A DNA stretch of 64,000 nucleotides, from NCBI RefSeq assembly GCF_030036535.1, contig NZ_CP080387.1, positions 2,732,501 to 2,796,500 on the forward strand, read 5' to 3'. The position numbers and the translations under genes were made by a program. The stretch is from Agrobacterium cucumeris (GTDB lineage Bacteria > Pseudomonadota > Alphaproteobacteria > Rhizobiales > Rhizobiaceae). This document shows, piece by piece, positions 22,397 to 53,520 of the stretch (positions within the stretch are counted from its first letter, which is position 1; each line of letters begins with the position of its first letter). Below the pieces are notes generated by a model that saw nothing but the letters and a program-made list of their open reading frames with translations, was not told the origin of the DNA and ran no database searches.

Positions 22397-22584
22397 GGGG
22401 CCCTATCCGGTTCGCACGAGGCGTGTGCGTATTTTCAAACGGTCTTAAACATTTCTGGCGGCAAGAAAAGCCCAAAGGGAAAATATGCGGTTCTCTCCTG
22501 GGGGGGAAGAAACGCGTCATCTGCCTGTAATGTGGTTAAGCTATTGCTCCTTCCAGAGCAAAAGGTGTGTGAATGCGTACCGGA

Positions 22585-22684
22585 ATGGAAGACATGATGG
22601 TCTTCTGGCTCAACCGTTATCTCCGCCACGGATGTACTGGCGGCGTATAACGGACATAAAAGGCGGGGGAAACCCCGCTTTTTC
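22585..22684 (+). ncRNA. Candidate sRNA, copy A of a two-copy family
   Basis: Three elements in order: hairpin GAAGAC-ATGATG-GTCTTC (22588-22605), a CCGTT/AACGG stem (22614-22618 with 22649-22653) enclosing CCACGGATGTACTGGC (22626-22641), and an intrinsic terminator. The same order and the identical 16-mer recur at 51035-51146. In this copy the element is further closed by CCGCC/GGCGG. The 5' end is not defined. A 25-codon frame starts at 22572 and covers part of it, but the shared bases are not read as a shared protein in copy B. Confidence 0.65.
22658..22684 (+). terminator. Intrinsic terminator of sRNA copy A
   Basis: AAAAGGCGGGG, loop GAAA, CCCCGC then TTTTTC. A strong Rho-independent terminator with a GNRA-type loop. 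Confidence 0.85.
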
Positions 22685-22789
22685 TTTGCGCTGACGCCGC
22701 GGAATGCGGGGTTATGGGCAGCGAAGACCATTCCCGGTGACGGCGCTTGATCGGGCTGGCTCCCGCGGCATGCGATCCGCAATCGGGCG

Positions 22790-50228: not shown

Positions 50229-50350
50229 TCAAACCATCGAAGCGACGCACTCCTCCTCCCAGCGTCGCCCGATTGGACTGACAATACTCCTCCTCCCAAT
50301 TGTCAGTCAGTTTCAAGAACCCGGCGCACCTCCTCCCGCGCCGGGTTTTT
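50229..50350 (+). ncRNA. alpha-r14-like sRNA with three anti-Shine-Dalgarno loops
   Basis: Three hairpins in a row, each exposing a CCTCCTCCC or closely related pyrimidine run: stem GCGACGC/GCGTCGC (50242-50268), stem GACTGACAAT/ATTGTCAGTC (50276-50308), and terminator stem CCCGGCGC/GCGCCGGG (50320-50345) with TTTTT. This is the architecture of the rhizobial alpha-r14 family (NfeR1 in Sinorhizobium), whose loops pair with ribosome-binding sites of transporter mRNAs. The 5' end is estimated. Confidence 0.88.
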
Positions 50351-50425
50351 GCTGTTTAAAGCCCTGTTTTCAGCGGCTTCGGTTTGGCAGCGCTTCACAA
50401 AGATCACACCGTTTTTCAAAGAAAC

Positions 50426-50454
50426 TTGACTTTTGGCCCCTGCCAACCTAGGTG
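50426..50454 (+). promoter_or_regulatory. Candidate cspA promoter
   Basis: TTGACT (50426-50431) and TAGGTG (50449-50454) with 17 bp between. The -10 is weak. A start near 50460 would give a leader of about 130 nt, as is usual for cold-shock mRNAs. Confidence 0.4.
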
Positions 50455-50590
50455 TTCGCCCATCGATATTTGTTTGACGACCAGAGCTTCGGCGCCTTTT
50501 TGGGTGCACACGACGATCTTTCCTTCAAATTCGACCCAAGACCGCACTGCGCGCAGTGCAAATACAATTTGCCAACGGAAGGAAATCGTT

Positions 50591-50800
50591 ATGGCGACTG
50601 GTACAGTAAAGTGGTTCAACGCAACCAAGGGCTACGGCTTCATTCAGCCTGACGACGGTTCGCAGGACGTATTCGTGCACATCTCCGCTGTTGAGCGCGC
50701 TGGTTTGACCGCCCTCAACGACGGTCAGAAGCTCTCCTACGAGCTGATGCAGGATCGCCGCTCGGGCAAGATGTCCGCAGGCGAACTCGTCGTTTCCTGA
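50591..50800 (+). CDS. cspA: Cold-shock protein (CspA family)
   Basis: 69 residues, one cold-shock domain. RNP1-like KGYGFIQP and RNP2-like DVFVHIS are present. It is an RNA chaperone binding single-stranded RNA and DNA. The ATG at 50591 follows GGAAGGAAATCGTT. Frames opening further upstream are leader sequence. An intrinsic terminator lies 40 bases after the stop. Confidence 0.95.
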
Positions 50801-50866: not shown

Positions 50867-51030
50867 TTTGGAAGACGGTCCTGAACGGGCTGGCCTTGAA
50901 AAGAACGGATCGCATACCAATATAGGGTTCAACAGTGTTTCGGATGAAAACTGTCGGGCGGGCATTTTGATAATGCCGCTGTGATCGCGTTAACCAAAGA
51001 TTAACCGAAACAGCTGATCCTGACCGTGAA

Positions 51031-51147
51031 AGCAGCGTCGACATGATCGACGCGCTCTGAAGCATCAGACCGTTGAACGCTTTGACCACGGATGTACTGG
51101 CATTGACGAAAAACGGATGGAAAGGTCGGGCTTGCCCGGCCTTTTTG
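51031..51147 (+). ncRNA. Candidate sRNA, copy B of a two-copy family
   Basis: The same ordered elements as at 22585-22684: hairpin GCGTCGA-CATGA-TCGACGC (51035-51053), a CCGTT/AACGG stem (51070-51074 with 51112-51116) enclosing the identical CCACGGATGTACTGGC (51086-51101), and a terminator. The surrounding bases differ while the pairing is kept. No open frame of note covers it. It lies between cspA and the convergent M20 peptidase gene. Confidence 0.68.
51121..51147 (+). terminator. Intrinsic terminator of sRNA copy B
   Basis: GGTCGGG/CCCGGCC stem with a CTTG loop followed by TTTTTG. Confidence 0.85.
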
Positions 51148-51166
51148 TTTTGAGCGCCAAAAGCAG

Positions 51167-53373: not shown

Positions 53374-53520
53374 AAAATAAAACCGCCATGGCCGGGAGGG
53401 ATCGGCCATGGCGGTCATATTGGAGGACAAAGGCCCGGAGAGGGGGAAAGGCCTTTGTCCGGTCTGACGCGGCGGGGGACGAGCCAGCTATCAGACTACG
53501 GCGTGATCAGGCGCCGTCCC
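53374..53520 (-). ncRNA. alpha-r7-like sRNA between marR and polA
   Basis: On the minus strand two long perfect hairpins: GGACAAAGGCC/GGCCTTTGTCC (53425-53460) with a C/T-rich loop, and a terminator ACCGCCATGGCCG/CGGCCATGGCGGT (53382-53415), with CCCTCC in the loop, followed by TTTATTTT. Upstream, TTGAAA and CATTTC with 17 bp between could be the promoter, giving about 145 nt. The position next to polA and a marR gene matches my recollection of Smr7C (alpha-r7) in Sinorhizobium. The family name is inferred. Confidence 0.75.

Follow-up and report, generated by a model that had tools for sequence, protein, structure and literature searches.

Two copies of a three-hairpin RNA in the window

The window analysed here is a stretch of 64,000 nucleotides from Agrobacterium cucumeris (NZ_CP080387.1, positions 2,732,501 to 2,796,500). 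Two loci on its forward strand, copy 1 and copy 2, carry the 16-mer CCACGGATGTACTGGC (Table 1). The identity of this element in both copies, noticed in the preliminary description, was confirmed by exact matching. When up to three mismatches were allowed, CCACGGATGTACTGGC had five matches in the window compared with 0.41 expected, and none of 100 shuffles reached five. In each copy, a leading hairpin is followed by the stem that holds the 16-mer, and the intrinsic terminator that had been described behind this stem is present in both as a GC-rich hairpin with a T run. Compared with dinucleotide shuffles, the fold of 22574-22688 had a z of -4.9 and that of 51025-51150 a z of -3.4, with 1 of 200 shuffles as good for the latter. 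For the hairpin plus terminator alone, z was -6.5 for copy 1 and -3.8 for copy 2.

Table 1. Features of the two copies and of the neighbouring cold-shock gene, in window coordinates.
Feature	Position	Strand	Basis
Copy 1, stand-alone RNA, probable diverged ar35 paralogue	22585..22687	+	ar35 score, own model, conservation
First hairpin of copy 1, with GACATGAT	22585..22606	+	fold
Second hairpin of copy 1, CCGTTAT/ATAACGG stem around the 16-mer at 22626-22641	22614..22653	+	exact match, fold
Intrinsic terminator of copy 1	22658..22687	+	fold and T run in sequence
Thermometer RF02762 in the csp 5'UTR	50368..50590	+	142.4 bits
Neighbouring cold-shock protein gene (csp)	50591..50800	+	Pfam CSD 79.3 bits
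Copy 2, ar35 sRNA, orthologue of C1_110258F	51026..51150	+	Rfam match 51031-51150; locus coordinates
Second hairpin of copy 2, CCGTT/AACGG stem around the 16-mer at 51086-51101	51070..51116	+	exact match, fold
Intrinsic terminator of copy 2	51117..51150	+	fold

Copy 1 is flanked by a pfkB-like gene on one side and a membrane-transport gene on the other. Its 5' end is uncertain, as the conserved block starts near 22556. Copy 1 is kept in 8 aligned genomes of the genus, and similarity drops abruptly right after the terminator. A 25-codon ORF over copy 1 (22573-22650) was rejected, since 3 of the 8 orthologues carry a frameshift or a break in it and two more have another start. A plasmid collection searched with copy 1 gave no match. 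No expression data for copy 1 were found in the literature, and the main text of PMC3738593 contains no tag for its C58 orthologue.

Copy 2 follows a csp gene, its element starting 286 nt after the csp stop codon and its end lying 350 nt beyond that stop. Neither copy is located within a csp mRNA 3'UTR, copy 2 being placed at this distance and copy 1 having no csp gene within 3 kb. An ar14 sRNA (RF02344, 121.8 bits) was identified at 50232-50353, immediately 5' of the thermometer and the csp gene. In the window, ar14, csp and ar35 therefore stand in a row. An ar7 sRNA (RF02342) is located at 53377-53508 on the minus strand.

The orthologue of copy 2 in strain C58

In PMC3738593, C1_110258F of A. 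tumefaciens C58, a standard laboratory strain, is placed at 110258-110380, with a length of 123 nt by RNA-seq and ~180 nt on Northern blot, and the sRNA is marked as confirmed by RACE at both its 5' and 3' ends. It stands downstream of the cspA thermosensor mRNA, which has a 66-nt 3'UTR (PMC3738593, Lee et al. 2013), and is described as abundant and separate from that mRNA (PMC3738593). Its read counts were 5420, 5444, 2955 and 3636 without TEX, and 559, 381, 220 and 983 with TEX (PMC3738593). As fewer reads were obtained with TEX than without, a processed 5' end is suggested for C1_110258F.

The corresponding locus was studied in a C58-like genome, which was taken as C58 partly from the position of cspA at the coordinates printed in PMC3738593. 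In this genome cspA occupies 109823-110032, the element spans 110318-110333, and ar35 scores 49.9 bits over 110253-110382. Because the spacing between csp and the element is equal in the window and in this genome, copy 2 is assigned, on locus and sequence, as the orthologue of C1_110258F. The two are alike in their position after cspA and are identical in element and terminator, but C1_110258F has a different first hairpin loop, in which GACATGAT is absent. The order of ar14, csp and ar35 is also the same, and ar14 of the C58-like locus sits where C1_109477F is printed (PMC3738593). The element of the copy-1 orthologue in this genome is found at 82107-82122, near 82.1 kb.

Relation to the ar35 family

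The suggestion that the RNA might already be in Rfam proved correct for copy 2, which passes RF02346 (ar35) in cmscan with 48.4 bits at a cut-off of 45. The same search left copy 1 below the threshold, with 26.0 bits over 22597-22687 against the curated cut-off of 45, and the copy 1 of the C58-like genome had no ar35 match at the Rfam cut-off either. With a covariance model built from 46 copies, copy 1 scored 25.5 bits (genome-wide E 1.7e-4). Because it reaches only 26.0 bits, copy 1 falls outside RF02346 by Rfam's rule, and from its sequence it is best seen as a diverged ar35 paralogue.

The two loci had been presented as a two-copy family. However, the genome has three exact copies of the element, the third on the second contig (L031), where ar35 scores 142.5 bits and passes the Rfam cut-off, and the family is a known multicopy one. 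On the same contig, a csp gene precedes this strong ar35 match by 1.7 kb and is followed by a terminator but no element (L031 4146-4230); in related genomes the element is present at this place. When nine other loci were compared with ar35, five hits passed (L032, L034, L003, L017 and L040), of which L003 is a csp 3'UTR from another family. L002, L033, L006 and L021 were below the cut-off, as were csp-linked copies in L032 and L034.

In PMC3927594, RFMSmelB053 is described as a multicopy family, mainly of the Rhizobiaceae, reported in 2011 by Reinkensmeier et al.; its first stem-loop is the most variable, the second carries the loop GGAUGUA and the third is a terminator. There, 29 of 33 related 3'UTRs were connected to cold-shock genes, and the sRNAs were proposed to sequester RNA degradation complexes (PMC3927594). 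SmelB053 equals smrB35 according to a table in a 2020 review (PMC7143759). Both window copies have the second stem-loop with GGAUGUA and the terminator-like third stem-loop. Copies 1 and 2 are best explained as stand-alone representatives of the ar35/SmelB053 RNAs or as relatives of these. The RNA family is real and already in print; what the window contributes is the orthologue of an sRNA already validated, together with a paralogue that is diverged and conserved and scores under the Rfam cut-off. A literature search, with most subscription papers outside its reach, found no functional study of the family after 2011.

The hairpin word GACATGAT, which had been taken as a feature common to the family, proved not to be general in it. 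In a ten-row alignment of copy 2 it occurs in the window row only, and GACATGA in 4 of 10 rows; the C58 copy-2 orthologue has neither. Among 8 copy-1 orthologues, the 8-mer GACATGAT is present in 5 and the 7-mer GACATGA in all 8. The copy-2 alignment and the C58 orthologue thus rule out GACATGAT as a family element.

Structure and constancy of the second hairpin

The stem of the second hairpin usually has a bulged A and is topped by a nearly invariant 9-nt loop, CGGAUGUAC. An A that would be bulged stands directly before the 15-mer in 46 of 46 gapless aligned copies; in copy 1, which has no bulged A, and in some other loci, a G is found in its place. Over the 46 copies, the five outer pairs were paired in 86.7% of cells compared with 74.6% in shuffles, double-changed cells numbered 52 compared with 22.7, and the covariation score was 0.325 compared with 0.132, with none of 500 shuffles as high in each case. 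Slid controls gave much lower covariation. Two weaker measures were equalled more often, pairs with a double change by 53 and pair types by 31 of 500 shuffles. The proposed structural selection on the RNA is therefore supported by a covarying outer stem. The related statement that the arms differ while pairing is kept holds across the family (46 copies); among the 8 copy-1 orthologues little varies.

Most loci were retrieved via the exact element, which requires the inner CCA/UGG and the loop, and the constancy of the element is therefore partly ascertained. In a relaxed inspection of 252 distinct csp 3' flanks, in which the three inner pairs were required, the exact 15-mer was found in 132, a variant in 8 and nothing in 112. 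Closing pairs were changed in 7 of the 8 variants and the loop in 4. An inner pair is broken in L110 and L112, and the loop is changed in L106. Because of these variants, the loop CGGAUGUAC is nearly, but not strictly, invariant. The genome of L109 (G704, from another family of the order) has seven model matches; the one fetched lies 27 nt after a csp stop, and a G-C pair replaces the closing A-U pair.

The loop CACGGAUGU resembles the consensus of a CsrA/RsmE site, from which a decoy that sequesters CsrA/RsmA could be imagined. A further sign of such a relation was a score of 21.7 bits for copy 2 against PrrB/RsmZ, which is below the cut-off of 44. A search for CsrA (PF02599) in 61 genomes, including 37 from the genus of the window, found none, compared with matches in 3 of 14 control genomes, and rhizobia lack CsrA homologues according to a review (PMC7143759). 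With none of the 61 genomes yielding CsrA, such a decoy is ruled out for CsrA itself, and this explanation has a negligible probability.

Distribution and linkage to cold-shock genes

Of the 199 family genomes, 141 have the 15-mer, compared with 7 of 199 for a reversed control pattern; in the class sample it is present in 10 of 289 genomes, that of the window included, compared with 1 for the control. In the 30 family loci retrieved, a csp stop precedes 13 elements by 20-55 nt, and no csp gene stands near the other 17. Among 9 class loci other than the window's own, the element is located 25-137 nt after a csp stop in 8.

With the covariance model and a match defined as E <=0.01, matches were obtained in 52 of the 150 genomes from the order and in 57 of the 299 from the phylum. 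Thirty of these 57 belong to the class: the window's own genome, 12 from its family, 9 from its order and 8 from other orders. The other 27 lie outside the class and are mostly weak; their number is above the E-value prediction, the E-values being rough. No csp link was found in six fetched loci from outside the class (L113, L114, L115, L118, L119 and L121), of which L115 lacks the core and L113 has the exact 15-mer. Among 53 loci from the model searches, 34 are csp-linked within 150 nt, and in 18 of the 23 loci that were new from the order search, all from other families, a csp stop lies at most 150 nt upstream.

The named loci among the matches listed comprise 80 loci with 81 elements, of which 79 could be assessed for an upstream csp gene, as two elements had too little upstream sequence; the 'no csp' entry of L221 is based on 250 nt. 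A csp stop lies at most 150 nt upstream in 44 of these 79 elements, among the matches listed, two more are 245 and 1661 nt from csp, and 33 have none in the locus. Csp-linked genera include Rhizobium, Mesorhizobium, Bosea, Rhodoplanes, Ancylobacter and Aquabacter, and other alphaproteobacterial orders contain patchy, mostly csp-linked copies. Roughly 20-140 nt separate the element from the csp stop codon ahead of it in many Hyphomicrobiales and in certain other Alphaproteobacteria. When one top-scoring csp locus per genome was sampled, rather than all csp genes, the element was carried by 1 of 30 loci in the class and by 3 to 5 of 57 in the order and family, and a universal csp 3'UTR element is ruled out by these counts.

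Two csp-linked loci show repetition. In Martelella radicis (L241), tandem elements lie 21 and 107 nt after the stop of one csp gene, and in Rhizobium leguminosarum Norway (L249) a csp 3'UTR element is followed by degenerate repeats of the element's flank. Ten genes upstream of non-csp copies were inspected: five are glutathione S-transferase-like, all from Mesorhizobium (L182, L203, L234, L242 and L256, with the element 49-66 nt after the gene), one encodes ribosomal protein S21 (Pleomorphomonas, L179, 85 nt) and the remaining four are all different.

Most of the loci inspected have the hairpin immediately ahead of a terminator. This would fit a purely local 3'-end element that aids termination or protects the 3' end, with stand-alone copies that would be relics or carriers lacking a function in trans. 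The occurrence behind other genes, for example the GST-like and S21 genes among these ten, agrees with this, as does the likening of the hairpin to the E. coli cspA 3'UTR in PMC3927594. However, a merely structural role leaves a near-constant loop over a changing stem unexplained, a strict terminator test was passed by 35 of 81 elements among the matches listed, and C58 produces an abundant separate sRNA (PMC3738593). We regard this explanation as unlikely.

Base pairing of the loop

An exposed loop, a terminator with a U tail and a multicopy family are usual in pairing sRNAs. All three are present here, and CGGAUGUAC could then be a seed for mRNAs in trans, with csp 3'UTRs releasing sRNAs with the same seed; the processed 5' end suggested by the lower read counts of C1_110258F with TEX (PMC3738593) is consistent with this. 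However, csp 5' regions paired with the loop more weakly than with shuffled loops, 57 of 60 shuffles being as strong or stronger, and exact 6-mer complements were found in 12 of 83 csp 5' regions compared with 17.8 expected. A seed could do without a fixed bulge and closing stem. No complement of at least 7 bases was found in 23S and 5S rRNA plus 4.5 kb upstream, a stretch without the 16S gene. The antisense 11-mer occurs at least at a few places per genome, own copies included, with no obvious excess. Base pairing is a possible role that we consider doubtful.

Discussion

The new observations on this family are the covarying stem, the counts of csp linkage and the patchy copies in other alphaproteobacterial orders. 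A near-fixed loop that is tied to csp genes and also carried by abundant stand-alone sRNAs points to a specific, testable control circuit. Of most interest in it is the molecule that the loop would bind.

Protein recognition fits better than a seed, because the bulge and the closing stem are kept together with the loop. A protein-binding hairpin is therefore favoured: CsrA is absent, pairing with csp 5' regions and with 23S/5S rRNA is unsupported, and bulge and stem are retained. We tentatively prefer the reading in which a protein binds csp mRNAs at this loop and is titrated by the free-standing sRNAs, a mechanism that may well apply without being probable. The core of the RNA family is the terminator-proximal hairpin with the loop CGGAUGUAC and usually a bulged A, in many cases downstream of a csp stop. 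The loop would be recognised by one conserved partner, probably an RNA-binding protein, with a cold-shock protein or an RNA-decay protein as candidates. This partner would act on the 3' ends of csp mRNAs, and the stand-alone sRNAs would compete for it, by which the stability or translation of csp mRNA would be adjusted. The structure, the conservation and the csp linkage are observed, and the expression of the copy-2 orthologue is taken from the literature. Against this reading stand the 33 of 79 named elements, among the matches listed, without csp in the locus, copy 1 with neither a bulged A nor a csp gene within 3 kb, the minority of sampled csp genes that carry the element, the existence of loop variants, the partly ascertained constancy of the element and the two weaker covariation measures.

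A more specific version would make CGGAUGUAC the site of a cold-shock-domain protein or of another partner specific to csp mRNAs, with the ar35-type sRNAs as sponges in an autoregulatory circuit like that of CsrA/CsrB, but based on cold-shock proteins and in bacteria without CsrA. As the csp-linked hairpin is also found in other alphaproteobacterial orders, this putative circuit would be older than the Rhizobiaceae. We consider this version improbable and put it forward as speculation. Bacterial cold-shock proteins are usually regarded as RNA binders of low sequence specificity.

Among known systems, ar35/RFMSmelB053 (S. meliloti SmelB053 = smrB35) resembles the window copies in its three stem-loops, the GGAUGUA loop, the terminator and the multicopy occurrence, but copy 1 differs from it by its 26.0 bits, the missing bulged A and another terminator sequence. 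The csp 3'UTR hairpins of Rhizobiales described in PMC3927594 have the same hairpin and loop before a terminator, whereas the window copies are separate, and the C58 orthologue of copy 2 is a separate transcript. The CsrB/RsmZ decoy RNAs may share their logic with the ar35 family, as a GGA loop is common to mRNA and sRNA; however, the window genome is without CsrA, and its RNAs have one site each and are not members of that group.
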